Under the pieces are notes generated by a model. It was given only the letters and a program-made list of their open reading frames with translations, was not told the origin of the DNA and ran no database searches. Below, piece by piece: positions 825-62,579 of a DNA stretch of 64,000 nucleotides. The DNA is from Owenia fusiformis (taxonomy: Eukaryota > Annelida > Polychaeta > Sabellida > Oweniidae): the NCBI GenBank assembly GCA_903813345.2, contig CAIIXF020000008.1, forward strand, positions 39,000,867 through 39,064,866, written 5' to 3'. A program made the position numbers and the translations under genes. The stretch's first letter is position 1. The number at the start of each line of letters is the position of its first letter.

Positions 825-977
825 GATCCAGAGATTCCTGTGTTCTTGCTGCGGAATGTCTGCTTCTTCTGTGATCGCAATGGTGTGCATCTAGCCATGG
901 GGCAGTGTTTTGACAAGGCAACCCCTGACACACTGCCATATACTCTTGCCCACACTCTCATCACAATTATAGCTAAT
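825..977 (+). CDS. USP34: USP34 exon 1 of window
   Basis: Residues 1-51, beginning DPEIPVFLLRN and ending LITIIAN. The acceptor is ctactatag and the donor gtaagt. It enters and leaves in phase 0. Vertebrate USP34 has a closely matching block near residue 200, so this is not the first exon of the gene. Confidence 0.9.
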
Positions 978-3900: not shown

Positions 3901-6900
3901 TGATGAATTCTTCACACATCTTTTGAGAATTTTGTGATTTTTATTTGAGTGGACCATCAGTGAATTTTCATTTTAACATTTTGAGTAAAACTGTTTATTC
4001 CATAATAACATGTTTTCCCTGGGAAAATAACAGGGAATAAAAGTGTTATTTGAAAAATCCCGTATCAGATCCCGTATCAGCCAAAATCCCGTATCAGATC
4101 CCGTATTGGATCCCGTATCAGCAAAAATCCCGTATCAGATCCCGTATCAGAAATATTCCCGGTAATTTCTCTTGAGTTTTACGCTTTTCGTCTAGCACAT
4201 CTCTACAGGAAGTAAAAAAATCGTTTGGAAAATTGAAATTATGGAAATTATTATCATCTAGTTTACGTCTATTACTGTGACAAAGGTCTATTACTGTGAC
4301 AAATATGTCTAAGTATGCAACAGAGGATGTTGAAAAATATTATGAAATAAATAGGTTATTGATGGTCGTGATGGAATATGGAATTATTCCTTGAGAAAAT
4401 ATGATATTGGCCTCAGAAAATAACATATTGACACTCGGGCTATCGCCCTCGGTCAATATGATATTTTCCTTGGCCAATATCATATTTTCCCTCGGAATAA
4501 AATCCATATTCCATCCCTCCCATTAAATAACCTCTATTTATACTGTAGTATAAGAAATTCTGTTTGTGCATAAAAATGTGTTTTTGGTGAGCAGGCCAAG
4601 TGCCAATTACTAAACTCAATGACTTAGTGTTAGTATCTTAAGATTAAGGATTGATTCTTAGCACATCAACAGTTTTCAATAATGTTAAATTAAATTGATA
4701 CATAACGTTAAGCAGTACAGTTTAAAAAAGACCAGTCTTCATCTTTTGACTTGAGCATATATGCATTATATGTCAGTACCTGTGAGTGAATATGGAATAT
4801 TGACAACATACATGAGTATGAAATATTTCCTTTGTTTTTGCAGACCCAAATCAACATTTACAATGAATTTCTCAACAATGATAGTATGACAGAAGCTGAA
4901 CAGTAAGTTAGTTTTTATGTAAATACAAGTTTTCATTGAAAATATAGCTTGTAGCCTGATTAAAGTTGTGCTTTAATAGTAGCACCACTCCCAAACTTGA
5001 AATACTTTTTCAGCCAGCCACTAAACAACCCTTGATATGAATAAATACTGTAATTATGGTATTTTCTGTAATAGTTATATTCATTATTCCAGTATTGGTG
5101 TTATTTTCTATAATAGTTATATTCATTATTCCAGTATTGGTGCCCAACTTGCCAACTGGCTTATAGAGAATAAGATAATTGAGCACATGTTTGGTCCCAA
5201 TCTGCATGTAGAGGTGAGTAAACTTAAACAACAGTGTGGTCTTGATTGAAATGGGCACTATGGTCTCTTTGGCATTGTGGGAAATGGGCACTGTGGTCTC
5301 CTTGGCATTGTGGGAAATGGGCACTGTGGTCTCCTTGGCATTGTGGGAAATGGGCACTGTGGTCTCCTTGGCATTGTTGGAAATGGGCATTGCACTTACA
5401 TGAGATTATGAAAATGGGTAAATACCCTGCCACAGTAAACCCACTTGGAAAAATGAAGTCATGTAAAATTGACATATTTTGACAGATTCTGTGTTTTTGT
5501 CAGAATTTTGTATTTTGAACTTGAGGAGATTCCCTTGGAAAACACAAACTTAAAGCATGCAACGTATGACCATATTTTGCCTATTTAATAGGCTAAGTCG
5601 TAGTTACACTACCACCTAATGATTTTAATTCACATTATATTTCAAAATCTCTTGTAAAATTGTAAAAAAAACTTTTTGCATTTTTACTCAGTTGGATCAG
5701 AAAGAGGTAAAACAACATCATTATCTCTTAAATATGTTTATTCAAGTAGCATTTGAAACTGTTTGGTTGTTGATACATGTATATAAAACATATTTACTTT
5801 CAGTTAATCAAACAAGCGCAGCCAATTCTAAACTTTCTAGCTATTGAACAGAAGATTACCAATGAACACATAGACTGTCTTTGGGCAGCAGGGCAGGTAA
5901 GGCTGAATATAGGCTGATTTCACATCGAGTTGGAATTATCAGCACTTTATTATCCCAACGAACGAAGTTCGGTAGGGATATAGTGAAGCCCTCCGTCCGT
6001 CCGTCCGTCTGTCTGTCCGTCCGTCTGTCCGTCCGTCCGTCAGTCAGTCAGTCAGTCCGTCCGTCTGTCCGGAAGATAACTGAAATACTCGTAGACGGAT
6101 TTTCTTCATATTTAATGGAAAGATGTATATTGGTGAATAGTTTTACGCAAACAAAAATTTTTTCAAGATCGCCGCCGCTTTAAAAATGACGGGACTTTTT
6201 CACAAAAATTATAAATTTTTCATTCTGAACCAAAGTAATTAATATTATTGTTTGAAATTTTGGTAGTATATTCACAACATTTATCTATTTCACATATATT
6301 CTGTGTTTTTCATCCTGACCCCCAGGGGCCGTGTATGGGGGGAGAGGAAAACAGAAATTTTCGCTAATTTTTAGATCTTTCTAAAGTATAGCTTTATTAT
6401 ACTCAAATGAAAGGCAATTAAGAGTAGATTGCAAATATTGTATCTTTTTTCTGATTTGAGCCTCGTAGAATTCAAAATGGCCATCTAATGAACAATTTCG
6501 CAATAATTTTTTGATCCCTTCAAAGTATGGCTATATTATACTCAAATTGAAGGAATTTTGGAGTAGATCAGAATTATGGTATTATTTTTCAGATTTGTAT
6601 CTCAGAAAATTCAAAATGGCTGCTTTGCAGGAATTCGCAATTCTAAAATCTCATTTTTTCAATTTTAACCAAAGTAATGAGTATAATTGATTGGAATTCG
6701 CTAATTGATATTTTGTTCGTTGGGATTTGCTACTCCGCGGAGTTGCCGTTATCTAGTTATGTTAATTTCAACAATGATTGTATAGCACTGAACTAACAAT
6801 AATGCTGCACCCTCAGGGCAAAGTTTCTCTCTCGGGATACAGTTTATGGGGGCCTGATACCTAGTAGGTATGGAACACCACCTACTGGCACAAGTGCCCC

Positions 6901-9900
6901 CTATATTAAGATGCTCTCTGATGACGGCAGTGCATTTAGTTCACACTGTCGACAGATACGGGGCAGACAAATATTAAATACATGTAGCTTGATTATTTCT
7001 ATTATCACACTTTGAAATGAGAAGAAGGGTATAACTAGAGTGATATTTACGTGAACTATTGATATTATGGATTGACCCAATTCATGTGAAGGTGAACCAG
7101 AATCATTACCACACATATCATCAACCATACAAGTGGATTGAGAAACCTGTATGTCCGAGCTACTTAAGATTAACCACCACATGTATGTTTTGTGTTCATA
7201 AGAATGAACCACCACTTACATATTTTATGTTTTATTCCAGCTAAAACACTGCAGTAAACAAGTCCATGATGTTATGATTCCTCTGATTAAGAGCCTGGAG
7301 GTTCAACCTGTACAGCATCTTCTAGAGCTGGTCTCCTCACTAGAGCCAATAGCCCATACTGAACAGACACTGTTCCTGGCCTCTGCACTCACAAAGTTCC
7401 TGTGGAACATGATGACCCAGTCAGGGAGTCATGTCACAGCTGTGCCTCACCATTGTCATAATCACTCATTTACTGCTTTAGATAAAGACCATGAAGACAT
7501 TACTAAAGGTATTTGGCCCTGCTTTTCACTAAATGTATTTAATTTATCTAGCTATATCATTAAAGCATTATGCTATATCGGTTCAATTTTGCTGCATCAT
7601 TTGAATCAGATTTTACAAAAATGGAAAAAATATTACAAAATGTTGTGAAACTATGTTGTAAAAGTCAGACAGGTAAAGTGCCTATTTTTGTTTTAAGAGT
7701 GAAAACGTCTGATTCCATTGTTTAAATCTTCCAGTTTACAACTATGTTATTCATCATCCAAATCCAAATCAAAAGTTCTTTCTTTTGGAATCCAAAGTTC
7801 AAGAAGAATCAAATTAATTTTATATATTTTTACTTTAGTTGGATTAGCTGATCTTAAGAGGCACAATGTCAGCAGTAGCGGAGAGGCTTCCGGAAGTGAA
7901 GATGAGGCTCATAGGAGACCAAGGTCACGAAGAGGTCAAGGTCATTCAGAAGTAAGTCACATGATCATGTAAAGAATATAGCCAAAGTTATATTAAGGTC
8001 AAGGTCACATTTTAAATCAAGGTCACTCAGAAATAAGTCACATGGCCACATAGAGGTCAAGTCATTCTGGGATCAGTCATTTGAAATCAAGTCCCATAGA
8101 GGTCAAGTCATTTGAAATCAAGGCCCATAGAGGTCAATTCATTCTGGGGTCAGTCATTTGAAATCAAGGCCCATAGAGGTCAAGTCATTCTGGGATCAGT
8201 CATTTGAAATCAAGTCCCATAGAGGTCAAGTCATTCTGGGATCAGTCATTTGAAATCAAGGCCCATAGAGGTCAAATCATTCTGGGATCAGTCATTTGAA
8301 ATCAAGTCCCATAGAGGTCAAGTCATTCTGGGATCAGTCATTTGAAATCAAGGCCCATAGAGGTCAAATCATTCTGGGATCAGTCATTTGAAATCAAGTC
8401 CCATAGAGGTCAAGTCATTTGAAATCAAGTCCCATAGAGGTCAAGTTATTCTGGGATCAGTCATTTGAAATCAAGTCCCATAGAGGTCAAGTCATTCTGG
8501 GATCAGTCATTTGAAATCAAGTCCCATAGAGGTCAAGTCATTCTGGGATCAGTCATTTGAAATCAAGGCCCATATAGGTCAAGTCATTCTTGGATCAGTC
8601 ATTTGAAATTAAGTCCCATAGAGGTCAAGTCATTCTGGGATCAGTCATTTGAAATCAAGTCCCATAGAGGTCAAATCATTCTGGGATCAGTCATTTGAAA
8701 TCAAGTCCCATAGAGGTCAAGTCATTCTGGGATCAGTCATTTGAAATCAAGTCCCATAGAGGTCAAGTCATTTGAAATCAAGTCCCATAGAGGTCAAGTT
8801 ATTCTGGGATCAGTCATTTGAAATTAAGTCCCATAGAGGTCAAGTCATTCTGGGATCAGTCATTTGAAATCAAGGCCCATAGAGGTCGATGTTATTCAAA
8901 GCTAGCAACCTACAGAACTCCACTAAAATGTAGCATGAAACATGCTCATGAAACGATATAAAAATCAATGCCATCTATATTTGCTAGAATATTATTTGTT
9001 GAATTAATACATAACTTAAAAGACATTAGTAAACCTGTTACAATATTGTGAGTATGAGGATAACTGAATTCTCAGTTTCATTTTGAATGGAATTTCATTT
9101 TCATAATTTGTATTACAGAGAGAGATCTCAGAACACCATCAAAGACTATTACGACAGAAAATCCATCAAAAATCCAAGCAAAAACACCGGTGTCATGATT
9201 CGGATAATAGCAGTGTGATTGCTCATAGTGACCTGAGCAACATCAGCGATGACAGTTTGCCAACTGATATGTCTGAGAATGAGCACATGTGTGGAAGAGG
9301 GGTCAGGAAAGGAAGTGCTCATTTCATTGATGTTAACGACATTGAAGATGAGGAGGAAGATCAGGGAATGAGCACTGAGAGTGAAGGAGATGAAGAGGAT
9401 GATGAAGAAGAGGAGGAGAGTGAATCATGTGAGGAGATCTCAATTGATGAAGAGGAACAGCAGATACTGTTGGAACAAGCCCAGCACAGACGTCACCAAC
9501 AGATGCTGCATCGATTGAGAATGAAAGAGATGAGGCAGCAGGGACATGTGCATGTTCATGATGATGACGAAGATGAGGATGAAGAGGAAGACTCAGATGA
9601 GGAAGATTATGAGACAGATGAAGAGGAGGAAGTGATGAAGAGGATGATGCGACACCGACGTCAAATGGAGGAAGACAGTGAGGATAGCGAGGAGTTTGAT
9701 GAGGAGGATTTATGCGAAGAGGAGCTTGATGTATACCAGCAGGAACTGCTCCTCCAGCAACATTGTCCCCCACTGAGGGTAGTTACCCATAATTCACCCA
9801 AGAATAAATCACCTATCAAATCCCCCCAAAAATCAACAATCAAAGCAACACCGCCTAAGTCTCCTGGGAAGGCTCTGTCTAAATCACCAGAAAAGAAATT

Positions 9901-12900
9901 TGAGAAGACTGACAAAACAAAACCCATTTCACCTAAAAAGACTGGTGACCAGATAAGAAAAATACAACAATCAAAAGTCAAGTCATCCGATTCCAAAAAA
10001 TCTAGTCCAGTAAAAAGTCCTCAAAAATCTCCACTTAAATCCCCTAAGAAGACGACTCCTGTTAAATGTGATAAACCAAAACCTGACAATGTTAGTGCTC
10101 AAGAAAAACAAATGGAAAAAAGTGAACCAAAAATGAAACCACAAATTGATGAACAGAAGAAAGAGAATGATCATTCCAAAGCTGAAAAGTGCAAAGAGGT
10201 GGAACAAGTTGATATGAAAGGAGGGCAAGATGAAGGCAACATGGAAGTTGAAGTTACTGATCTGACAAACTTTCAACCTACAACTGAACAGGATTCAGAG
10301 AAATGGTATGTACACTCAGTCTAAAGTATTAACATTTTTATTACTTACATGTTGTAAAAACAAGTGCCGCATTCTTATAGCATTCTAAACAAACCCAGCA
10401 ATATCAGAGCCGGGTGTGGCATAAGCATTTACAAAAGGGAATAACATTGCAACTTGTACATTATTCAGATGGTGCTAGTAAGTGGAATCTTTTTAAGGGA
10501 AATGAACATGTTGTATTATTATTTTTTTGCAATGTTTTTTAGGGGTTTCCTGATTGAGAAGTCTGAAGAAGAAGGCAGCAACTCATCACGAATGAGTGCC
10601 AAATCAGATAAAAATATGGCTGATTTTGAAGGTATGCAAATCAGTATTATGTTCTTTCAACAAATCAAGACTGAATATATCATATAAATACTGTTATGTA
10701 CATCCAAAAACAAGGCTCAAATGCAAATACTTTTTGGTTGCATTTTAATGTGTCATATACTTCAAGTTAAGAAACCAAATGTGGATAACTGCCAATTCAA
10801 ACACTTTTGGCTGTGTCCTAGGAGCATTTGGATAAACCTTTATATCACATTTCAATTGCTGTTCCATGTATTTTAGGAGAAAAGGGGTTGAGTGATGAAG
10901 AAATTGCTCACTTGACCAGCCATGCTGTCCCAACCTGTAGCACTCCAAGCAGACAGAGACAACCAGCGCATGCTATGGGCTCATATGATAACACATTCTA
11001 ATTGCTGTTCCATGTATTTTAGGAGAAGAGGGGTTGAGTGATGAAGAAATTGCTCACTTGACCAGCCATGCTGTCCCAACCTGTAGCACTCCAAGCAGAC
11101 AGAGACAACCAGCGCATGCTATGGGCTCATATGATAACACATTCTAATTGCTGTTCCATGTATTTTAGGAGAAAAGGGGTTGAGTGATGAAGAAATTGCT
11201 CACTTGACCAGCCATGCTGTCCCAACCTGTAGCACTCCAAGCAGACAGAGACAACCAGCGCATGCTATGGGCTCATATGATAACACATTCTAATTGCTGT
11301 TCCATGTATTTTAGGAGAAGAGGGGTTGAGTGATGAAGAAATTGCTCACTTGACCAGTCATGCTGTCCCAACCTGTAGCACTCCAAGCAGACAGAGACAA
11401 CCAGCGCATGCTATGGGCTCATATGATAACACATTCTAATTGCTGTTCCATGTATTTTAGGAGAAGAGGGGTTGAGTGATGAAGAAATTGCTCACTTGAC
11501 CAGCCATGCTGTCCCAACCTGTAGCACTCCAAGCAGACAGAGACAACCAGCACATGCTATGGGCTCAGACTTTCATAAACAATTAGTCCAAGGTAAAAAT
11601 TGCAAATTGGGAAACCTCTCTAATCCGGAATATAAACAGGTTTTACACGCTTCTCCTAATAACGCCATTTTGAAATTAGATACTCGTTTGAATGTTAATA
11701 TTAATTCACACATAGGAAAGCAAGGTGTGTCCGATTTTAGCCAATCCGAACACAGTATTTCATTTAACTGCAGTGTATTGTATCACCAATCACTGTATGG
11801 AAGGTCATTCCTTATGTGGTTGTCAAGTTGACAACTTGACTCTGCAGATTGAAATTGATACTTTGCCAACTTGACCTTTGCAAAAAGTTTCATTGCAAAT
11901 ATGTGCTTTTAGTGATTTCGTATCTTTTAAGTGACATGTTAGAAAATATTTTGTAATATGTGAAAACAATTTAAGCCCAAGACTCAATGCATTGTGGAAT
12001 GACCATTCCTTTCATGCTTTGTTTCCTAAAATAAACACTTGATATCGATGCTCAGCGCACCTCGTGCAAAATTTGGAAAGCAACACCTTCAAGGAATGGT
12101 CATTCCACATTGCACCGAGTCTAGGGCTTAAATCCTTAACTAACGTAATTTGAGAAAAATACAGAAAAGTGTTCAGTACTTCTGGACCTCTCAACAATCA
12201 AAGTAATTAGACTATAAGAGTAGCAACCACTCATATTTGCATTTAACTCCATTAATAGAGAAAACAGGAATAACTGAAAATATTTGTAAAATATGATGGC
12301 TTTTTATATAGTTATTCTTCAGTGTTGTCATAAATATTTTCCCTGAAAATATAAAAGCTACTGTTAAATGGTAAAGCCATTGTCTCATACTTGTTTGAAT
12401 TATTTCAGGCTCCAGGAAAGTGAATGAGTCTGAAAGCACAAGTAGCAACCCCAATAGCAGCCATATGTTGGAGGATGTATCTGATAGGGGGAATACATTA
12501 CTATGGGACCTCATACAGGATGATACAGTGGTAGGTGATATTGTCAATTAATCAAAATTTTGTGTTGGTGGTGACAAATTGTCATAGTCAATGTTTTTGT
12601 GACCTACTGTCTGTTTTTGGCATCAAGCTTCATCGTTCGGCATCTGTATGTTTATAAGGATAAACAGTTTATAGAACATTGTTCAACATTCTTGAACATT
12701 ATTGAACATCAAATCTCCTTTAAACTGTACTTGTAGCATTTACTGCCAGAAGGGCTCTCAATGGAAGCAGAGAAGATCCTATGTTCTCTGATTTGCTTCA
12801 CCAATGACCATAGGATCAGGATGAGCTTCATTGAGGCATGTATTGACAATGTGGCCCATCACAGGTCTGTCCTCGTCTCTCTGAGGATGCTACCCAAGCT

Positions 12901-42900: not shown

Positions 42901-45900
42901 AAGTAGTTGCTAACATGCTCATACCAAAACATATCATCAAACAATTGAACATAATTACAAGTGTACATGTATGTGCACTTGTAAGAGATACAAGGTGGTA
43001 ACATTTCTTCATATTAACGATGTGCTTCAAACACATAGCTGCTTGATTTCTGGTGACAATCACTTTTCACTATTTGTAATAATCTTGAAAAAACAAATTG
43101 CCAATTGGGCAATAGACTGAATGCCAAGATGTTAAATTGGGCACTTTTCACTGTTGGCAATGAACTTGGAAAAATAAAATGTCTATTGGGCAATGTCCTG
43201 AATGTCAATATGCTAGTTAAATTGGGCAATCACTTTTCACTCTTGGACTCGGAACAACAAGTTGCCTATTGGGCAATAGCTTGAATGCCAAAAATGCTTA
43301 ATTGGGTAATCTACCATGTTTGTATTTCAGTGGTTCCTGGACCATATGGCATCCGATGATTGGTGGCCAGTTCAGATCCTCATCAAATGTCCTAACCTAG
43401 TTGTCAGACAGGTAATATATTCATACCCTCAACTCTTTTAAATGTTTAGAACCATATTTTCAGATGCAGTCTTCAAATATGATATCACTTTGACTGAATT
43501 TGAATATTTAATGATGAAATGATTATTCTAATTTTGCTATAAAATGACATATAATTAATTGATCTGTTAACGAGTTATTTAACAAAAAAGGCTGAACACC
43601 ATAACCTCTATCTCAGTCTCCTTGCATACATTGCCATACATTATATCACACTTGGCCATGTTATTCTGTGTGTTTTAGATGTTCCAGAGGTTGCTTATCC
43701 ATGTGATAACCCAACTAAGGGCTGAACACCATAACCTTTATCTCAGTCTCCTTGCATATATTGCCATACATTATAACACACTTGGCCATGTTATTCTGTT
43801 TGTTTTAGATGTTCCAGAGGTTGCTTATCCATGTGATAACCCAACTAAGGGCTGAACACCATAACCTTTATCTCAGTCTCTTTGCATATATTGCCATACA
43901 TTATAACACACTCGGCCATGTTATACTGTGTGTTTTAGATGTTCCAGAGGTTGCTTATCCATGTAATAACCCAGCTAAGGGCTGAACACCATAACCTCTA
44001 TCTCAGTCTCCTTGCATATATTGCCATACATTATAACACACTTGGCCATGTTATTCTGTTTGTTTTAGATGTTCCAGAGGTTGCTTATCCATGTAATAAC
44101 CCAACTAAGGGCTGAACACCATAACCTCTATCTCAGTCTCCATGCAATGGAAAGTGATGGGGAGGAGTGTGAGCTTGCAGAGTTGGGCTCTCAGTCATGC
44201 GTCACACGATTCATCAAGAAAATGCTTACTATTGTAAGTGTATAAGATAAGACACTCTATTTATAAAAATGAGAGAATTAGAGAAAATGATCCTAGTATA
44301 ACTTAGAGGTAACATAGTAATTTTCTATCAGTGGGAGTACCTTGTTGATTGACTCAAATGTACTTTGTTTTAATGTCTCCGCCAAGAGGTAATGATATAT
44401 CGTAATTGCCACCATTTGTGACTAGCATACAGTGGCTACATCTATAGCAATTGTTACATTTTTGTAAACCTACTTGGTGTTGTCATGTATTGTTTTGTTT
44501 TAGATCGAGAATGTGAAGCCCAGTAGTAAACATCTCACAGAGTACTTCGCATTCATGCTAGACTTTGCCAAAATGGGAAGCAATGAATGTATCTTCCTCA
44601 TCCACATCAGTGCAATATCAACATTCATCAACTTCTACATGGGACATAAGCCAGCTGATTATAATGTAAATCTTAGTTTATATTATGAAATAAGATGAAA
44701 ATAATTATTATTAATACTTATTACTGGCCAGTGTGGTCACCATATTTTTATTGAAAGTATATTCTCACAGCATTACCCATTTTACTTATTATGAAGATCT
44801 TGTGTAGAATTTTCCAGAATTACTGAGTTTGTAACATTTCTGAGCATTATTATCTTAAGGACTAAGACAGTTATATTGATTTTTCATTGTGTGACAACAA
44901 TGTCCAAAGTTTACAACCTGGCCTTACACTTCAATGTTGTTTATCTGACATATACTTATTTCCTAACATTTCTTTCCATAAGCATGCAGAGGCAACATCC
45001 GAAGATGACGAAGATGAGGATGATGATGTCATTCCACTCTCTGATGAAAAATACCGTCCCCAAGCTCTTGAGAAAATGATCACTTTGATCGCAATGTTAG
45101 TCGAGAATGCAAGGGGGGAAGATAACAAACTGGAACTGCCAGAAGATGATCTCCAAGCTCTTATAGATAGAAACTACACCCAAATTAACTACCCGAATAT
45201 GACGGATAAGGAATTCTTCAATTCTCTCGGAAATACCATGAAATTGGTGAGTAATTAAGTTTTTCTCCATAATTTGAAGTAAAATATAGAAAAACCTTGA
45301 TGCACTTAATCATCACATTGCATGTTTATTATCTTAAAGATTACTTTAAACTATATTATAAAATGAGTAATTCTAAACATTTGATTGGTTAACACTTTAT
45401 ATGTGATAGAGAGACACCACAAATTTGTTTATGTTTGATCCATGACATGTATATTTCAGGAGTTTCCATTCCTGTTCAGTCAAATCAGAGACTGTATCAA
45501 TGTGAGGCAGACGTGTAATCTAATATTTAGTCTATCCAGGTGGAATGACAGATTGGCATATGCTGTGAGTACATATTATTATCAGAATTTGTATATCAAA
45601 TCATCATGTCTGTATGCATAATGAAAAAGTAATTAACCTGTGAAGTGGACTTATATACTTTTTGCCATGCATGTTGCACCAGCCTGTTTATCAATGACAT
45701 ATTTACATACCTCCTAGATTCAAAAACAATCTGCCCCCAAAAAGATTTGTAAATGATTGTTTTCCCCACATACCTTAATATAATTGTACTGCTTCTCTTA
45801 CTGAAATACCATGATTTATGATTATAGATTGTCAATATGATGTTCAACTCCATCACAAAGCTGAACTCAGACCAAGCCCAGCCATTCTTTAAACTTCTCT

Positions 45901-48900
45901 CCTGCTTAGTGGAATTTGTCGGTGGTCCCCCAGGCATGCCCCCATTCACGCAGTTCATACTGAGAAAATTCTGGGAAGTAAGTATGTTAAGTATTTGATG
46001 AGGTAATCAAGAGCTGCATCAATTAGTTGTGTTAACCAACCTCTCTTCCAAACCCATATGCAATTTTCCCTTTTAGGCGATTGTATTGAGAATGGCTTAC
46101 ATAAATGATCACTTTAGATTAATCTCATAATGATGTGAGCAACTAGGTGATGACAATTTGTCATGTTAATGTCTTGTGTAATTTTATGTAATAAATTTTA
46201 TAAGGTATGTTGTCTATGTCTGTCTGTTGGCAAACAAAACCTAGTATTTAAATTTTAATCGGACATTCATAAATCGACAGGGGGCTCTGTTAGTTAGTGT
46301 CAGATGGATATTAACAAATGCATGTACTTAGTCTCAACTTTTACTATGTTGGTTTCAGTTAACTGAATTCTGCCCCCAGCAGTGTCTAGAATGGCTGAGT
46401 AACCAAGTGACCAGGAACAAGTTAGTCCACAATTGGGTCCTGAAGCACATGAATGTCTGGGTGGAGCAGTACCTCATGGCAAACTCTAATATAAGAGTCA
46501 GAAATGGTAAGTGCCCCTTGCATGAATGTCTGGGTGGAGCAGTACCTCATGGCAAACTCTAATATAAGAGTCAGAAATGGTAAGTGCCCCTTGCATGAAT
46601 GTCTGGGTGGAACAGCACCTCATGGCAAACTCTAATATAAGAGTCAGAAATGGTAAGTGCCTCTTGCATGAATGTCTGGGTGGAACAGTACCTCATGGCA
46701 AACTGTAATATAAGAGTCAGAAATGGTAAGTGCCCCTTGCATGAATGTCTGGATGGAACAGTACCTCATGGCAAACTCTAATATAAGAGTCAGAAATGGT
46801 AAGTGCCCATTGCATGAATGTCTGGGTGGAACAGTACCTCATGGCAAACTCTAATATAAGAGTCCGAAATGGTAAGTGCCCCTTGCATGAATGTCTGGGT
46901 GGAGCAGTACCTCATGGCAAACTCTAATATAAGAGTCAGAAATGGTAAGTGCCTCTTGCATGAATGTCTGGGTGGAGCTGTACCTCATGGCAAACTGTAA
47001 TATAAGAGTCAGAAATGGTAAGTGCCCCTTGCATGAATGTCTGGATGGAACAGTACCTCATGGCAAACTCTAATATAAGAGTCAGAAATGGTAAGTGCCC
47101 ATTGCATGAATGTCTGGGTGGAGCAGTACCTCATGGCAAACTCTAATATAAGAGTCAGAAATGGTAAGTGCCTCTTGCATGAATGTCTGGGTGGAGCTGT
47201 ACCTCATGGCAAACTCTAATATAAGAGTCAGAAATGGTAAGTGCCCCTTGCATGAATGTCTGGGTGGAACAGTACCTCATGGCAAACTCTAATATAAGAG
47301 TCAGAAATGGTAAGTGCCTCTTGCATGAATGTCTGGGTGGAACAGTACCTCATGGCAAACTCTAATATAAGAGTCAGAAATGGTAAATGCCCCTTGCATG
47401 AATGTCTGGGTGGAACAGTACCTCATGGCAAACTCTAATATAAGAGTCAGAAATGGTAAGTGCCTCTTGCATGAATGTCTGGGTGGAGCAGTACCTCATG
47501 GCAAACTCTAATATAAGAGTCAGAAATGGTAAGTGCCTCTTGCATGAATGTCTGGGTGGAACAGTACCTCATGGCAAACTCTAATATAAGAGTCAGAAAT
47601 GGTAAGTGCCTCTTGCATGAATGTCTGGGTGGAGCAGTACCTCATGGCAAACTCTAATATAAGAGTCAGAAATGGTAAGTGCCCCTTGCATGAATGTCTG
47701 GGTGGAACAGTACCTCATGGCAAACTCTAATATAAGAGTCAGAAATGGTAAGTGCCCCTTGCATGAATGTCTGGGTGGAGCAGTACCTCATGGCAAACTC
47801 TAATATAAGAGTCAGAAATGGTAAGTGCCCCTTGCATGAATGTCTGGGTGGAACAGTACCTCATGGCAAACTCTAATATAAGAGTCAGAAATGGTAAGTG
47901 CCCCTTGCATGAATGTCTGGATGGAGCAGTACCTCATGGCAAACTCTAATATAAGATTCAGAAATGGTAAGTGCCCCTTGCATGAATGTCTGGGTGGAAC
48001 AGTACCTCATGGCAAACTCTAATATAAGAGTCAGAAATGGTAAGTGCCCCTTGCATGAATGTCTGGGTGGAGCTGTACCTCATGGCAAACTCTAATATAA
48101 GAGTCAGAAATGGTAAGTGCCCCTTGCATGAATGTCTGGGTGGAACAGCACCTCATGGCAAACTCTAATATAAGAGTCAGAAATGGTAAGTGCCTCTTGC
48201 ATGAATGTCTGGGTGGAACAGTACCTCATGGCAAACTGTAATATAAGAGTCAGAAATGGTAAGTGCCCCTTGCATGAATGTCTGGATGGAACAGTACCTC
48301 ATGGCAAACTCTAATATAAGAGTCAGAAATGGTAAGTGCCCATTGCATGAATGTCTGGGTGGAACAGTACCTCATGGCAAACTCTAATATAAGAGTCAGA
48401 AATGGTAAGTGCCCCTTGCATGAATGTCTGGATGGAGCAGTACCTCATGGCAAACTGTAATATAAGAATCAGAAATGGTAAAGAATGACATAAAATACAT
48501 TCAATTAAAGGAGTGTTGGGAAAAAAAGGAATGGGGCCGGGCAAAAAATCAGCTCAAAACAGTTGTTAAAAATTATTTGAATAACGAGTCTTGCTGTTTA
48601 TATATAGTGTCAAATAACTACTTTCTCCCCACTGTTTAAGAAATTCATATATTTCTTCATTGTAATATATATTATGGATATTATTTGTAGCTGCTAGCCG
48701 CTTATTGTTGCACATTAGCCTTTCATAATGATGAGATACATATTTACACAATGGAATTTGAATTTGTAGCTGCTGGCCACTTATTGGTGTCCCTTGTGCC
48801 TTGCAATCACTTCAGACAGGTCTACAGATCAACCAGGAGTCTCCCTAGTCCACACAAAGACATGCATGTAAGTGCAAATCATGTTTCAATTATGGTTCTA

Positions 48901-51900
48901 TAAATATTTGAATGATTTACAAAAAATTTGAATCCATCACATGTTTTGTCCAGTATGAGCAATGAGTTTTAAAGGATTTTCCGGCAAAATTTGTCTGTTG
49001 CTAATATACATGTACCCCTTTTATCTGTATGATTTGATTGAATTCTAATTATTAAACTCTGGCTATTTCAACTCTGCTCTTAAATATACATTTTGAACAT
49101 TTCAGATGTCACCAGAAGCATTAATCATACTGCACGAGATCTATAAACATCTCCTCAACCTGCTGCCAAATGCCAAACTCTATGTGGACACCGCCTGCCA
49201 TGGAACAATGAAACTGATGCCTTACTTCTTGCTTATGATGTACTGCTTAGTGAGCAAAACAGAGAAACTCATGGTAAAGTGGCTTACCACTTAATTGTGA
49301 GCAATACAATGAAAGGCCAGAAATATTCTATGAAAGTACAGAAATATGAAATGAAAGGCCAGAAATATAAAAAGAAATAAAATGAAAGGCCAGAAATATA
49401 AAATGAAAATCCAGAAATATAACACGAGAGGCCAGAAATATAAAATGAAAGTCCAGAAATATAACATGAGAGACCAGAAATATAAAATGAAAGGCTAGAA
49501 GTAAATATGAAATGAAAGAGCACAAGTGAAAGGCTAGCTGTATAAATTTAATGAAAGCTGCAATATAAAATGAAAGGTTTGCAATAAAAAGGCCATAAAT
49601 ACTGACCAGTACATAAATTGACTTATGAGAGAGACCTTTTGAGATAGTTCACACACATAAATGTTGATTTTTTTAAAAATAGTGCCTCACTATTTTAATT
49701 GAAACAAGGTCTTCTTGTTTTATCTCCCAAGTTCTGTATTTTTTATGTCTTACAAAAGTCATGTTTGTAGAACAGTGTTTTACAATCTGTTTTGAATTTT
49801 TTCTTTTCAGTTTTCGTGCCATTTTCAAGATCTGTGGACATTATTCCAACCCAAGCTGTCAGAGCCACCTATCTCCACCCACCAGAACAAACAAGCCCTC
49901 CTGTTGTTTTGGTATCAGGTCTGTGTTGACTGCCCAGAAAATGTGAAGCTGATTGTCACAAATGCTCATGTCACAAAGAACATTGCCTTTAACTACATCC
50001 TGTAAGTAGAACATGCGGTGAACTCCCTCCCAAAGATTCTTGTCAACAGTGTGCAAGTTGGCCTATTTGAGGCATAATAAACCAATATTCATAGTTGTGT
50101 TAACAGATTTGCATGAATTTTAACATGATGCAGCTATGCTCTCATGCAGTTAAGATCACTGCTATTTTTGTAACTTGTAATCATACTGCAGATTTGCACC
50201 CAAAGATTGTCTGCATGTGGATTTTATCAAATAACCAATCCAGTCATTTTGATGTGTAGTAGTGAGCAGACCATGGTCTCCGATTATGTAAAAAAATGTA
50301 CCCAACATATCTGTGTCTGTTAATTAGTGGCACCCATTCAAAGCAGTAGATGATTTTATGAATCAATTTGATTATTTGTAGAGCGGACCATGAAGACCAA
50401 GATGTTGTTATGTTCAACAGATGTATGCTCCCAGCCTATTATGGTATTCTGCGTATGTGTTGCGCCCAGTCTAGGACATTTACACGGCAGCTTTCTCAGC
50501 ATCAGAACATTCAATGGGCTTTCAAGAACATCTTACCATACTCAATGAATTACACTGCTGTAAGTTAAATTTAGTTTTTTTCTTACACCTTTTTGACTCA
50601 CTTGGAGCCTATGGAATCATCTACTCGTCCATCTGTATATCTCTCTTCTTTTGTTATTTTGTTTTTATAAACATGCGCATCAAACATACATTGTACATTG
50701 GAGATTCATAGCTAAGTGCACCTGTGGTAATTCATGAATTGTTCCTCTTGGGAGGAGTTCCACTAACAGAGGTTCATTTAACCATGGGCATTCAATAGAT
50801 TTGGGCATTCTATTGTAAGCCCATGATTTAACAATAAGTCATAGGTTGCGGGACTTATGGAGGTGTATACACTTACAGAGGTGTTCCACTTTACAGGTTT
50901 TACTGTATACTATCACATGTTTCCTTTAATATATTCCAGGCTGTGGATGAACTGTTTAAGATTATGCGTATTATGGTCACCAAACACCAAGATGCCTCAG
51001 ATGAGGAGCTACGAAGTATTGCAGCATTTCGTAGCAACACAATTCGACTGTTTATGCAGAATATTGACTCAAGAGCTTGGCAGACAATCATACAGTAAGA
51101 TTTTAGATATTTTCTTTCCAAAACTTAGTTTTGGATTATTTTTTTCATAAACTTTGTGTACATTTATACTAACTGCCATTCATTGATTTTTTTGTTTAAT
51201 TCAGCAATTTACTGTACCATTTTGAATTAGCATTAAAGCAAACTATTCTTGTCTTATATAACACTCATATGCTATGATTATATTTACAGGGCATTGAAGA
51301 TTGTAGTTGAGAGTCTTGAGGACAGACTTCTAGTAATCTATCATGTGCTATGATTATATTTACAGGGCATTGAAGATTGTAGTCGAGAGTCTTGAGGACA
51401 GACTTCTAGTAATCTATCATGTGCTATGATTATATTTGCAGGGCATTGAAGATTGTAGTCGAGAGTCTTGAGGACAGACTTCTAGTAATCTATCATGTGC
51501 TATGATTATATTTACAGGGCAATGAAGATTGTAGTCGAGAGTCTTGAGGACAGACTTCTAGTAATCTATCATGTGCTATGATTATATTTACAGGGCATTG
51601 AAGATTGTAGTCGAGAGTCTTGAGGACAGACTTCTAGTAATCTATCATGTGCTATGATTATATTTACAGGGCAATGAAGATTGTAGTCGAGAGTCTTGAG
51701 GACAGACTTCTAGTAATCTATCATGTGCTATGATTATATTTGCAGGGCATTGAAGATTGTAGTCGAGAGTCTTGAGGACAGACTTCTAGTAATCTATCAT
51801 GTGCTATGATTATATTTACAGGGCAATGAAGATTGTAGTCGAGAGTCTTGAGGACAGACTTCTAGTAATCTATCATGTGCTATGATTATATTTACAGGGC

Positions 51901-54900
51901 ATTGAAGATTGTAGTCGAGAGTCTTGAGGACAGACTTCTAGTAATCTATCATGTGCTATGATTATATTTACAGGGCATTGAAGATTGTAGTCGAGAGTCT
52001 TGAGGACAGACTTCTAGTAATCTATCATGTGCTATGATTATATTTGTAGGGCATTGAAGATTGTAGTTGAGAGTCTTGAGGACAGACTTCTAGTAATCTA
52101 TCATGTGCTATGATTATATTTGCAGGGCATTGAAGATTGTAGTCGAGAGTCTTGAGGACAGACTTCTAGTAATCTATCATGTGCTATGATTATATTTACA
52201 GGGCATTGAAGATTGTAGTCGAGAGTCTTGAGGACAGACTTCTAGTAATCTATCATGTGCTATGATTATATTTGCAGGGCATTGAAGATTGTAGTTGAGA
52301 GTCTTGAGGACAGACTTCTAGTAATCTATCATGTGCTATGATTATATTTGCAGGGCATTGAAGATTGTAGTTGAGAGTCTTGAGGACAGACTTCTAGTAA
52401 TATATCAGCAAGGATTCACTTTACTCTCTGATGTAAGTAAATATAATTCAAAAAAATAAAAATAAAATATGTATTATGACTTAAAGATAAAGTATTCAAA
52501 TTAGGCAGATGACTTTAGACGCCTATCTCAACTAATGTTTATGTTTATTCTTATAATGATCTTCCAGTAATGATTTACAAATGCTTTTGGCTTTTAAACC
52601 TTGTTTCATTCTATAGTTCATTCTTATTTCAGTGTTTCCAAACCCTCCACAGTATGTACCATGAAGCTACAGCCTGCCATGTAATCCAAGAGATACTAGA
52701 CTTGTTACATATCATCATACCTATACTTAAAGTCGGCAAACTCTACCAGGAGAAAAAAAGTAAGTATTTTAAAAATAAAAGTGTTAATCGTCACAGTCCG
52801 TGTAAAAGTTTATGTTATTCTTGCTATGTTTTGCACTGAACATACTTAGCTATAAAAAGGTTCTGTCGCAGTAACCATGAGGTCGTGAGTTCAAGACGCA
52901 TTTACTCCATTTATTGTTTCATCGTTTTTATTATTTATAGTGGCTGATGTGAGAACCTGCCTGGTGGGCTGGAAGGGGAGGATGGATTTTGTGCGTCGCC
53001 TGCTCACTCTACTCAACACCTACACTCCACCTGAAATCCGCATAGCAACATCAGGTAGTTAACCCTTATCATACTTGATCACATACTCTCCACCTGAAAT
53101 CCACATAGCGACATCAGGTAGTTACCCTTATCATACTTGATCACATACACTCCACCTGAAATCCGCATAGCGGCATCAGGTAGTTAACCCTTATCATACT
53201 TGATCACATACACTCCACCTGAAATCCGCATAGCAACATCAGGTAGTTAACCCTTATCATACTTGATCACATACACTCCACCTGAAATCCGCATAGCAAC
53301 ATCAGGTAGTTAACCCTTATAATACTTGATCACATACACTCCACCTGAAATCCGCATAGCGACATCAGGTAGTTAACCCTTATCATACTTGATCACATAC
53401 ACTCCACCTGAAATCCGCATAGCGACATCAGGTAGTTAACCCTTATCATACTTGATCACATACACTCCACCTGAAATCCACATAGCGAAATCAGGTAGTT
53501 AACCCTTATCATACTTGATCACATACACTCCACCTGAAATCCACATAGCGACATCAGGTAGTTACCCTTATCATACTTGATCACATACACTCCACCTGAA
53601 ATCCGCATAGCGACATCAGGTAGTTAACCCTTATCATACTTGATCACATACACTCCACCTGAAATCCGCATAGCAACATCAGGTAGTTAACCCTTATCAT
53701 ACTTGATCACATACACTCCACCTGAAATCCGCATAGCAACATCAGGTAGTTAACCCTTATCATACTTGATCACATACACTCCACCTGAAATCCGCATAGC
53801 AACATCAGGTAGTTACCCTTATCATACTTGATCACATACACTCCACCTGAAATCCGCATAGCAACATCAGGTAGTTAACCCTTATAATACTTGATCACAT
53901 ACACTCCACCTGAAATCCACATAGCAACATCAGGTAGTTAACCCTTATCATACTTGATCACATACACTCCACCTGAAATCCGCATAGCAACATCAGGTAG
54001 TTAACCCTTATAATACTTGATCACATACACTCCACCTGAAATCCACATAGCGACATCAGGTAGTTACCCTTATCATACTTGATCACATACACTCCACCTG
54101 AAATCCACATAGCGAAATCAGGTAGTTAACCCTTATCATACTTGATCACATACACTCCACCTGAAATCCGCATAGCAACATCAGGTAGTTAACCCTTATC
54201 ATACTTGATCACATACACTCCACCTGAAATCCGCATAGCAACATCAGGTAGTTAACCCTTATCATACTTTATCACATACACTCCACCTGAAATCCGCATA
54301 GCAACATCAGGTAGTTAACCCTTATAATACTTGATCACATACACTCCACCTGAAATCCACATAGCAACATCAGGTAGTTAACCCTTATAATACTTGATCA
54401 CATACACTCCACCTGAAATCCGCATAGCAACATCAGGTAGTTAACCCTTATCATACTTGATCACATACACTCCACCTGAAATCCGCATAGCAACATCAGG
54501 TAGTTAACCCTTATCATACTTGATCACATACACTCCACCTGAAATCCGCATAGCAACATCAGGTAGTTAACCCTTATCATACTTGATCACATACACTCCA
54601 CCTGAAATCCGCATAGCAACATCAGGTAGTTAACCCTTATCATACTTGATCACATACACTCCACCTGAAATCCGCATAGCAACATCAGGTAGTTAACCCT
54701 TATCATACTTGATCACATACACTCCACCTGAAATCCGCATAGCGACATCAGGTAGTTAACCCTTATCATACTTGATCACATACACTCCACCTGAAATCCA
54801 CATAGCGACATCAGGTAGTTACCCTTATCATACTTGATCACATACACTCCACCTGAAATCCGCATAGCAACATCAGGTAGTTAACCCTTATCATACTTGA

Positions 54901-57900
54901 TCACATACACTCCACCTGAAATCCGCATAGCAACATCAGGTAGTTAATCCTTATCATACTTGATCATATTGTCACCAGGAGCAGAAGGGTTCATCAAACA
55001 TATGTTGTACTTTTCATCATATTTCTTGTGGGCCTTTGCAACAGACTAGGCAGTAGGTCCATCAATCTATCCATCCATTAGTCCGTCCATCTGTCCGTAA
55101 ATCATCGTTGTGATTTTTGGCCTTTTGTTAATGTGTGGTCATGGTCTCTATTTTAGTCTTCCTTTCCAATCCCTATATCTAGGTGTGTACATATGTATCT
55201 GTATAATATCTAATAGCTATTAACAGGAATATTGAAATTCCCCTCTTGAAACAGTATGTTTCTTTTGTTCTGAAATGATATGTATTTGTAGTGAAAAAAA
55301 TATGATGTAAAAATATTGCTTTGTGTAGCCATCTGTTTTTCATTTAAAAGCGCACTATACTTAATTTAGAACAAAAAGTAAAAAGAATAATCATTGAAAC
55401 ATGTTACTCAAACACTTGCTCAAATCTGACACAAAGTCTGATTTGCTTTAATATTGGACCAAGGAAAAAATAACTCCCATAGAAAAAGGCATATGAAGTT
55501 CAGAGATCATTAGACGTGCATGCACATGTTAAACAAAGAGCATGTTTTAAATTACTATTGATTTAAAAGATGGCGACACTTCTATAAAAATGAATGTATC
55601 ATGTAATACAAACAACTTCGCCATCTTTCAATGACATTGATAAAAACTTGATATATAAAGCTTGACAGATCAAAAATATTTTTTGACAATTTATTGTAAG
55701 CTTTGACGTGGTCCATTTGAGCTGTTGTTGGTGTCAAATGAAAGATAAGGTTCTTATCAATACATTGGACATATATATGAAATTTAAATGTATGTCTTTA
55801 TTTTGCCCAAAAATGTTGAAAATTCCCAAAATGGGCCTTTAATACCCAAGTTAAGATTACTTGAATGGGTGAGGGGGGACAAGAAAATTGGAAGAACATT
55901 TAGCCGAACCTTTGAATTAATAAAAATGTAAAACTGTCTCTATATAATTTTGATGACTGGGATTTTTTATAATGAATATGTAAAACAATTTATTTTATTT
56001 CAGATGTACTGAGGGAAATGATAATTATCTACCCTAACGACGCTCTCAACCATTTAGTGCCAATATTACTGAGCAGTCACATGACCTTCCAGGAACAGGG
56101 TATCTGTCGTAAGTGATTTGAATGTTTTGTCAATGAAGGCTTAATATGCCAGTTATTAAACTATAATGAAAGGCATTTGTGTACCAAAAGTGGCCACTAT
56201 TTGCATAAAGAAATGTTACCCTTTCCCTAATAATCAAAAAATGTTGATGTTGTTATTTTACTTCAATAGCTCCAATGGGTCCATATTTCCCAAAGAGAGG
56301 CCAGAAACCGATCAGTTCGAAGGCGTCCATACGTCCTCCCAGGCCACAGTTCCAAATGTTCCTGCATCACAACCAGCTAGAGTCAAATAAGGTAATGTTC
56401 AACTATTATACAGCAGCACAAAGCACTGCTTGTTACAAAAAATCCAATAAACCATCTTATGATCCAACGTTTCAATGGTCAAGTGATTCCTCAACCCTCC
56501 AGGAACAGTTATTTAAATTAACCACTTTCAGTATGGGCAACTGCTTACAGCATTTTATTCACCATATTGTCATTGTCTCCCCTATAGGGTGTTGATGAGC
56601 AGTATGACCAGGCTTTATGGGATTTCTACACCCAGTATGGGCAACTGCTTACTGCATATATTACCCATATTACCATTGTCTCCCTATAGGGTGTTGATGA
56701 GCAGTATGACCAGGCTTTATGGGATTTCTACACCCAGTATGGGCAACTGCTTACTGCATATATTACCCATATTACCATTGTCTCCCTATAGGGTGTTGAT
56801 GAGCAGTATGACCAGGCTTTGTGGGATTTCTACACTCCGTACTACCTGGTTGTGGACCTTCTAGTCAGAATGGCAGTCAATCAAAGAAACCTCAATGATG
56901 ATGTCATCAATCTTAGTAAGTTACCATAGCAACCGCATCTTTTGACCTATTTGAGAACAACTACTTATTTTTTGTTTCTTAATGCATGGATATTTTTTGC
57001 ATATTCTGTGAAAGTCTTGAGAAACATTGAAAACAAGAAAATAAGACTATTTTTGCATAAATGACCTGTACATCATTTCTAGCAAAATTACCAACTAGCA
57101 AAGTGAAAGATAATGTTTAATTGTCAGTGTTGCATTAATTTAACTGTAACTGGTAGAATCTGTCTAATCTGGATGTCATTGGGACTAGACAAAAGTGTTT
57201 GGATTAGCAGGTTTCACATTTAATGTTTTTTTCATTTGTGCATCAATGGGAAAACTATTACTGAGAAAAAGTTTTCGCATCAAAAGGTATTTGGATATAT
57301 GTTTTTACTGTATTTGTCTTACATATGTTTAATGTTATTTCAGGTGCAATGGTAGCATATGAAGGTGTTCCTCTACATGTGCCATACTTTGGTAAACTAT
57401 GGTATGAGATCTACCATGTACTGTATTTATCTCACATATGTTTAATGTTATTTCAGGTGCAATGGTAGCATATGAAGGGGTTCCTCTACATGTGCCATAC
57501 TTTGGTAAACTATGGTATGAGATCTACCATGTACTGTATTTATCTCACATATGTTTAATGTTATTTCAGGTGCAATGGTAGCATATGAAGGGGTTCCTCT
57601 ACATGTGCCATACTTTGGTAAACTATGGTATGAGATCTACCATGTACTGTATTTATCTCACATATGTTTAATGTTATTTCAGGTGCAATGGTAGCATATG
57701 AAGGGGTTCCTCTACATGTGCCATACTTTGGTAAACTATGGTATGAGATCTACCATGTACTGTATTTGTCTTACATATGTTTAATGTTATTTCAGGTGCA
57801 ATGGTAGCATATGAAGGTGTTCCTCTACATGTGCCATACTTTGGTAAACTATGGTATGAGATCTACCATGTACTGTATTTATCTCACATATGTTTAATGT

Positions 57901-60900
57901 TATTTCAGGTGCAATGGTAGCATATGAAGGGGTTCCTCTACATGTGCCATACTTTGGTAAACTATGGTATGAGATCTACCATGTACTGTATTTGTCTTAC
58001 ATATGTTTAATGTTATTTCAGGTGCAATGGTAGCATATGAAGGTGTTCCTCTACATGTGCCATACTTTGGTAAACTATGGTACGAGATCTACCACTCAGA
58101 GCAAGTAGACAAGAAGTGTATCCAGCATTTATGTGCTAGTAATGCCCTGGTTGAGTATGTTGATGCTGTATTACTTGATGAGAGATTGTCTCTGAGTGAT
58201 AGCCACATCTATCAGTTCTTCTGTAACTTCTTCCCTAAGGTGAGACACCATTTCCAGATTTGTTCTTTTCTGACCTTATTATTTTCCCAATTTTAGATGT
58301 TTTTAGACAGAATTAATCCATAACCCTTACATGTAGTTCTAATGTTATACTGTCTACATGCCATGCCATGATTTGAAACTGGAGTGTAATTCTGTGTTGA
58401 AGACTAGTGTGAAAAAGTATGTCTATTAGATTGTGGTTAAAACCCACATTACCCACCCATATGGGCACTGTGTTTATTGCCCTAACATAGGTGTACCAAC
58501 CAATCATTTAATCAAGATTCCATATGGGCACTGTGTTTATTGCTCTAACATAGGTGAACCAACCAATCATTTAATCAAGATTCCATATGGGCACTGTGTT
58601 TATTGCTCTAACATAGGTGTATAAACCAATCATTTAATCAAGATTCCATATTGGCACTGTGTCTATTGCTCTAACATAGGTGAACCAACCAATCATTCAA
58701 TCAAGATTCCATATTGGCACTGTGTTTATTGCTCTAACATAGGTGAACCAACCAATCATTTAATCAAGATTCCATATGGGCACTGTGTTTATTGCTCTAA
58801 CATAGGTGTATTAACCAATCATTTAATCAAGATTCCATATGGGCACTGTGTTTATTGCTCTAACATAGGTAAACCAACCAATCATTTAATCAAGATTCCA
58901 TATGGGCACTGTGTTTATTGCTCTAACATAGGTGTACCAACCAATCATTTAATCAAGATTCCATATGGGCACTGTGTTTATTGCTCTAACATTGGTGAAC
59001 CAACCAATCATTCAATCAAGATTCCATATGGGCACTGTGTTTTTGCTCTAACATAGGTGTACCAACCAATCATTTAATCAAGATTCCATATGGGCACTGT
59101 GTTTATTGCTCTAACATAGGTGTACCAACCAATCATTTAATCAAGATTCCATATTGGCACTGTGTTTATTGCTCTAACATAGGTGTATTAACCAATCATT
59201 TAATCAAGATTCCATATGGGCACTGTGTTTATTGCTCTAACATAGGTGAACCAACCAATCATTTAATCAAGATTCCATATGGGCACTGTGTTTATTGCTC
59301 TAACATAGGTGTACCAACCAATCATTTAATCAAGATTCCATATGGGCACTGTGTTTATTGCTCTAACACTGGTGAACCAACCAATCATTCAATCAAGATT
59401 CCATATGGGCACTGTGTTTTTGCTCTAACATAGGTGTACCAACCAATCATTTAATCAAGATTCCATATTGGCACTGTGTTTATTGCTCTAACATAGGTGA
59501 ACCAACCAATCATTTAATCAAGATTCCATATGGGCACTGTGTTTATTGCTCTAACATAGGTGAGCCAACCAATCATTTAATCAAGATTCCATATGGGCAC
59601 TGTGTTTATTGCTCTAACATAGGTGAGCCAACCAATCATTTAATCAAGATTCCATATGGGCACTGTGTTTATTGCTCTAACATAGGTGAACCAACCAATC
59701 ATTTAATCAAGATTCCATATGGGCACTGTGTTTATTGCTCTAACATAGGTGAACCAACCAATCATTTAATCAAGATTCCATATGGACACTGTGTTTATTG
59801 CTCTAACATAGGTGTATAAACCAATCATTTAATCAAGATTCCATATTGGCACTGTGTCTATTGCTCTAACATAGGTGAACCAACCAATCATTCAATCAAG
59901 ATTCCATATGGGCACTGTGTTTATTGCTCTAACATAGGTGAGCCAACCAATCATTTAATCAAGATTCCATATGGGCACTGTGTTTATTGCTCTAACATAG
60001 GTGAACCAACCAATCATTTAATCAAGATTCCATATGGGCACTGTGTTTATTGCACTGTCTAACATAGGTGAACCAACCAATCATTTAATCAACATCCACA
60101 TGATGACTCTTTCTAATGGTACTATATATTTTCAGGTTTACCAACAAGTTCTCAATGACCAGGGTAAGGCCTTAATGGAGAGTATTGTGGCCTCAGTTGT
60201 GGCAGAGAGGGCAGCCTTGGACAATGTACGCAGCGATAGGGATTTCAATAATATAGCTCAGAGAATTAATGGGGTAGGTAGATTTAATTTTCCAGCAAAC
60301 ATTTGTTCTCTGCTTGTTGATGATCTATGAATCTCCTCTTTACATGTAGAAACTAAATTCACTTTTCTAGGATGGATATTCTCAGTGTAGCCTTCGATAA
60401 ATTTAAGAGATTTCTGTTTGGTACATAAAGAACCTTAACCTTATGGGGTTTAACCTTTGTCTGAACTTAAACCTTTCTTTAACTTTTGTATGATCTTTCA
60501 CCTTTGTATGACCTTGACAGAAACATTTATATGACCTTTAACCTCTAAATAAACATTTAACATTTAAATGACTTCAAATTAATCTTTTAATGACATGTAA
60601 TCTTTATCTGATTCTTGTAGGATGTACGTGCAATGTTACTGATTTTCTCAGTCCAACCTCCCAAGAGTTTTGGTGGCATCTTAAAACAAAACCTTCAGTC
60701 GATTCTAAAAATTTGCCAGAAGTACCAGCAAGCCAAGAGGGCCAGGGAAGAGCAGGAGAGAAAGCGAGAAGAGCAGGAAAGGAAACTGGAAGAGCAGGAA
60801 AGAAAGAAGCTTGAAGAGGAGAGGGAGAAGTTGGAAAGGAAGAAGATTGAGATAGAGCAGGAGATAGAGGCGGAGACGAGGAAGAAGCGAGGAAGTGTGG

Positions 60901-62579: not shown

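Follow-up and report, generated by a model that had tools for sequence, protein, structure and literature searches.

Tandem arrays on exon-intron junctions of the USP34 gene in the annelid Owenia fusiformis

Fourteen exon-intron junctions of one Owenia fusiformis gene, USP34, were found inside tandem arrays within a single stretch of 64,000 bp (the whole stretch analysed, hereafter the window). These arrays are probably neutral, locus-specific minisatellites, the survival of which is filtered by splicing. The first-pass annotation of the window had proposed a mechanism or tolerance specific to exon-intron boundaries; a mutation mechanism of this kind is not required by the data, as overlap with junctions in 29 other regions was at the level of randomised positions (See below).

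Junction arrays in the USP34 gene

The gene model was built on the window with every array collapsed to about one copy, so that the repeats would not mislead the gene finder, a small self-trained exon-chaining program. This ab initio model gives a single plus-strand gene with 67 exons, a coding sequence of 11,505 nt and a stop at 62579. Both ends of exon 8 and of exon 18 are weak, and the exon numbers differ from those of the first-pass annotation. The translation of the catalytic domain identified the gene as USP34 (best PDB match 7w3r, 597 bits), and the same region also matches Pfam UCH. The source is one haploid assembly, and some 199 kb of the contig lie beyond the end of the window. If the contigs are taken in the order 1, 10, 11, 12, 2-9, the 38 forkhead matches in this assembly are on chromosomes 1, 2, 3, 5, 6, 7, 8, 11 and 12, with tandem groups on 5 and 7 and a tight pair on 11, in agreement with the Fox-gene map published for Owenia (PMC9539403). 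Long minus-strand open frames are present at 15362-16596 and 19489-20241, between exons 17 and 20; our guess is that they are transposon remnants.

Arrays were called with TRF, which returned 90 rows for the window, many of them mutually overlapping. Twelve junctions had been named as lying in arrays from a first reading of the sequence, and all 12 were placed on junctions by TRF and the gene model (Table 1). The acceptor arrays among them start at 10842, 33503, 43590, 51265, 56529 and 57306, and the donor arrays at 26258, 28155, 35149, 46448, 53017 and 60921. The extra two are two-copy acceptor duplications (5060 and 32918). The TRF start of the array at 35149 was moved by hand to 35104 to include a 46-bp variant first copy, and an exact-match search ends the 43590 array one copy sooner, at 43939. 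Unit and copy number vary from one junction array to another.

Purely intronic arrays are also present in the gene. One of them (58457) was considered as a junction array and rejected; the gene model joins 58239 to 60136 in phase. The periods of the arrays at 8044 and 29722 were set by hand.

Table 1 Tandem arrays and catalytic-domain exons of USP34 (positions in the window)
Feature	Position	Strand	Unit and copies	Remark
Intronic arrays (two)	1569-2494 and 3184-3495	+	29-30 bp	Purely intronic; common unit
Acceptor junction array	5060..5142	+	42 bp x 2	Predicted functional acceptor before 5135
Intronic array	8044..8897	+	46 bp	Purely intronic
Acceptor junction array	10842..11567	+	146 bp x 5	Predicted functional acceptor before 11461
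Donor junction array	26258..27149	+	52 bp x 17	Predicted functional donor after 26292
Donor junction array	28155..28865	+	90 bp x 7.9	Predicted functional donor after 28217
Array scored as intronic	29722..31131	+	45 bp	Edge case; starts at the exon 28 donor without clearly spanning it
Intronic array	32064..32493	+	86 bp x 5	Purely intronic
Acceptor junction array	32918..33036	+	61 bp x 2	Predicted functional acceptor before 32996
Acceptor junction array	33503..34738	+	92 bp (60-bp variants too) x 13	Predicted functional acceptor before 34667
Donor junction array	35104..35498	+	51 bp (first copy 46 bp) x 7.7	Predicted functional donor after 35120
Ubiquitin-hydrolase domain exons	38174..42150	+		Gene model, PDB and Pfam matches
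Acceptor junction array	43590..44146	+	130 bp x 4.3	Predicted functional acceptor before 44069
Donor junction array	46448..48481	+	73 bp x 28	Predicted functional donor after 46506
Acceptor junction array	51265..52407	+	76 bp x 15	Predicted functional acceptor before 52354
Donor junction array	53017..54966	+	63 bp x 31	Predicted functional donor after 53054
Acceptor junction array	56529..56835	+	102 bp x 3	Predicted functional acceptor before 56792
Acceptor junction array	57306..58094	+	113 bp x 7	Predicted functional acceptor before 58022
Intronic array	58457..60092	+	63 bp x 26	Purely intronic; ATAG|GTGAAC motif, no gene-model junction
Donor junction array	60921..61660	+	32 bp x 23	Predicted functional donor after 60924

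Comparison with known systems

To judge from their sequence, the Owenia arrays are of the anatomy of amphioxus 'mirages', a known kind, in another phylum. Mirages are described as minisatellite-like tandem duplications of the exon-intron boundary on the donor or the acceptor side; many of the repeats keep AG/GT, and normal splicing is reportedly undisturbed (PMC3087553, PMC3902484). The portions of these sources available to us name Adh3, the globin genes BflGb6 and BflGb9 and PGBD5, with more genes cited (PMC3087553, PMC3902484). According to the same portions, data on Adh3 and RT-PCR suggest regular splicing, and the mechanism is called unclear (PMC3087553). As in mirages, the Owenia unit spans the exon-intron boundary (14 arrays in the window and 10 in the sample described below), and both 5' and 3' boundaries are hit, with 12 donors and 11 acceptors among the 23 junction arrays measured in window and sample. 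The Owenia units, 30-146 bp in length, are inside the mirage range given as 10 to about 160 bp (PMC3087553). The two systems differ in extent: the amphioxus accounts, as far as available, concern a few chordate-gene boundaries, whereas Owenia has 14 in one gene, with up to 31 copies, in addition to the 10 in sampled genes. When the literature was searched (mostly open-access text, in part as excerpts), no annelid junction arrays were reported among the matches listed, and mirages were described in amphioxus only.

Intron gain by tandem genomic duplication, as outlined in the available parts of two papers, likewise involves duplicated splice-signal sequence that is hidden by splicing (PMC4974935, PMC3443670); in Owenia, in contrast, existing introns appear to be lengthened. 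For earthworms, an account available in part describes minisatellites in the first intron of metallothionein genes and mentions no array over a junction there (PMC12783039). Their unit size is similar and USP34 has intronic arrays too, whereas the USP34 junction arrays include the exon edge.

Introners and transposed intron elements are units dispersed at many loci. The USP34 junction arrays were not found to be dispersed in this manner: 0 of the 14 had a match in other sampled regions, and the 13 matches to the 73-bp unit at 46448 were all within its own array, in a search that skips very common words. The 29-bp unit matched only in two intronic arrays of USP34. Dispersed tandem units of 135-162 bp, with matches at several sampled loci, were observed at L008 (2336), L012 (2145) and L039 (3573 and 7027), unlike the junction arrays of the window.

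Overlap with junctions in the window and in sampled genes

For the null expectation, each collapsed array was placed randomly in the array-collapsed gene, and positions wholly inside exons were barred. About two copies are left by the collapse in a few arrays (e.g. 26258 and 58457), and the null is conservative as a result. The window contains 33 arrays, of which three were dropped (two wholly exonic and one outside the gene), giving 30 scorable arrays. A collapsed residue of 60-170 bp has a chance of about 18-45% of junction contact, and this is high because introns are short (median of about 300 bp in the array-collapsed sequence). An earlier hand estimate of one in seven (14%) is therefore too low, the proper null being 24% for all arrays and 30% for long homogeneous ones.

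Junctions were overlapped by 14/30 window arrays against 7.2 expected (P=0.004), and by 13/17 arrays with a unit of at least 40 bp and a match of at least 90% against 5.1 expected (P=7e-5); these values are uncorrected for the choice of the window by eye for its arrays. With unit length replacing residue length in the null, the expectation fell to 5.6 (14/30, P=3e-4). The earlier statement that most arrays are on junctions corresponds to 47% of all scorable arrays, or to 13/17 in the long, homogeneous class. The intronic arrays of the window (n=15) did not differ from uniform in their distance to junctions (KS P=0.48).

An independent sample of 29 regions of 9.9 kb was selected blind to array content. 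It consists of 18 dynein heavy-chain genes (grouped from 88 AAA_6 matches) and 11 myosin genes (the first 11 distinct genes in E-value order, as grouped by us), and covers 0.29 Mb of the 498-Mb genome, with little power for long arrays. Among the 379 predicted exons, 332 were verified against paralogues; regions L016, L018, L031 and L032 have three or fewer verified exons each. A total of 80 arrays was found and 21 were dropped (19 beyond the predicted gene span and 2 inside spurious-looking exons), leaving 59 scorable. Three arrays were re-scored by hand after sequence inspection, L012 7277 and L038 1129 to not junction and L014 3555 to junction.

No junction excess was observed in the sample, with 10/59 arrays on junctions where 12.6 were expected (9.9 if unit length is used) and 7/47 against 9.4 when verified exons only were used. 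Junction arrays were present in 7/29 regions. For long homogeneous arrays the count after hand corrections was 6/12 against 5.1 expected; at the window rate of 13/17, the chance of six or fewer is 0.04. Those that were also locus-specific gave 7/8 against 3.8 (P=0.019) before hand correction and 5/8 against 3.8 (P=0.29) after it, and 1/20 of the sample test rows was just under 0.05 (6/9 against 3.2, P=0.049). Thus, the sample does not support a strong preference for junctions across the genome. The first-pass annotation had named genome-wide overlap no higher than in shuffled controls as one result that would speak against its proposal. In the 29 regions the overlap was indeed not above the randomised level, and on the other side the intronic arrays of the sample were closer to junctions than a uniform distribution would place them (KS P=0.01, n=40), which leaves room for a weak junction-proximal bias.

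A boundary-tied mutation process could seed junction duplications through transcription- or splicing-linked breakage, a nucleosome edge, or recombination limited to exons if introns are too divergent between homologues. This explanation is unlikely but credible. It is favoured by the excess among long homogeneous window arrays, by the lean of the sample's intronic arrays and by the two-copy arrays at 5060 and 32918, which are already on junctions (2/7 of the scorable arrays in the window that have under 2.5 copies). Units also lean towards the exon, with a mean exon share of 0.59 (n=23). Against it, the blind-chosen regions are without excess, donors and acceptors are hit alike, and the junction is found at 0.12 to 0.93 of the unit (KS against uniform P=0.09, n=23), so that the units show no centring on the splice site. 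In addition, short-unit arrays (20-39 bp) had no excess in the window (1/10 against 1.0 expected) or in the sample (3/39 against 4.3). It seems quite unlikely that a process directed at boundaries or exon edges, perhaps strongest near chromosome ends, repeatedly seeds the junction duplications in Owenia and also gave rise to the mirages of amphioxus. An example would be recombination restricted to exons, in a genome of high polymorphism. Array content was not correlated with distance to the chromosome end across the 29 loci, one of which is within 1 Mb of an end (Spearman P=0.23).

USP34 is rich in arrays as such. Long homogeneous arrays numbered 17 in the 64-kb window, compared with 13 in 287 kb of sequence outside it (P=2.8e-6), and junction arrays per junction were 14/130 in the window against 10/704 in the sample (P=1e-6). 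The GC content of the window's intronic arrays was 0.425 against an intron background of 0.319 (unit of at least 25 bp, match of at least 85%, n=6), and that of exons is 0.436. When the null was weighted by GC, 13.6 junction arrays of 20 were expected and 14 were seen, in a post hoc calculation from six arrays. A preference for GC-rich arrays can therefore account, post hoc, for the junction excess of the window. This preference was not seen in the sample (slope 4.0, LR 1.1), and with window and sample pooled the GC weighting still left an excess (23/40 against 15.6, P=0.008).

Repeated coding segments were also observed at other loci. At G000:C9:37986009-37994334, 12 consecutive matches to one short myosin-head stretch (about positions 18-84) are located upstream of further myosin exons and look like a large alternative-exon cluster. 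Three similar exons of one gene in L004 (2463-8109; G000:C9:7082562-7088208) match one dynein AAA_6 stretch and are possibly mutually exclusive. A doubled stretch is also present in the proteins predicted for L010 and L014. In a Hox gene (L024; G000:C1:18290400-18290880), a single duplication seems to have affected the sequence before the homeobox, and possibly its acceptor; it is visible solely as a repeated peptide in translation. The Hox protein of L023 has a KLTGP tail, which we take to be the spiralian Lox5 mark.

Exon depletion, spare copies and origin of the arrays

Arrays wholly inside predicted exons were scarce, at 2/61 against 9.5 expected in the sample (P=0.002) and 2/32 against 4.8 in the window (P=0.12). 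The two exonic arrays of the window have units of 21 bp, divisible by three, and are located in coding sequence of low complexity, and the exon predictions that host the two of the sample look spurious.

Across 24 junction arrays, GT or AG was retained in 219/230 copies. The splice dinucleotides were off the unit consensus at 17/460 positions (3.7%) against 470/15,259 (3.1%) at other positions (P=0.41), in a count for which a fallback rule put the L014 junction at a doubtful AG. In the 19-array set, which omits L014, the predicted functional copy keeps GT/AG in 19/19 arrays and all 7 losses are elsewhere. When spare copies only were counted in these 19 arrays, 9/384 dinucleotide, 78/2304 exon-side and 60/2289 intron-side bases were off consensus, and no three-base (codon) rhythm was found on the exon side. 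In this respect spare copies behave like intron. In the gene model, the reading frame is continuous through the outer copies, and the conserved domain DUF3517 is continuous across the junction of the 43590 array if the last acceptor is used. The scarcity of exon arrays, the intact outer copy and the lack of constraint on the other copies support the earlier suggestion that selection lets through only those duplications that do not alter the mRNA.

A selected function of the extra splice sites, e.g. as back-up or regulated alternative sites, is very improbable. The high retention of GT or AG would agree with such a role, but the dinucleotides change about as often as other positions, spare exon copies are without codon rhythm, and unit and copy number differ between junctions. 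An assembly artefact, by which repeats were expanded or collapsed, is hardly credible: copy numbers may be inexact in an assembly made with Canu from PacBio Sequel reads, but the arrays reach at most about 2 kb against a read N50 of 25.75-30.75 kb in the available part of the assembly report (PMC9977687), copies carry point changes and variant units, and junction arrays recur in unrelated genes.

Neutral minisatellites filtered by splicing are the most likely reading. Short tandem duplications would arise along the gene and grow by slippage or unequal exchange. Duplications internal to exons would alter the protein and mostly be purged, whereas arrays that are intronic or straddle a single junction would leave the mRNA unchanged if the outer copy on the exon side is spliced, i.e. 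the first donor where donors are repeated and the last acceptor where acceptors are. The choice of this outer copy would be favoured by exon definition. The remaining copies would merely lengthen the intron, as reading frame and homology suggest. USP34 would hold so many junction arrays because long, homogeneous arrays abound at this locus; in addition, there seems, post hoc, to be a preference for GC-rich DNA in array formation or retention here, by which segments that extend into the GC-richer exons would be over-represented. Tolerance by splicing can explain most of the junction arrays.

Mirage-type arrays are now recorded in an annelid, including genes chosen blind to arrays. For gene annotation they mean decoy splice sites by the dozen, and they bear on models of intron growth and gain. 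They also offer a natural test of how the spliceosome chooses one site among many near-identical ones.
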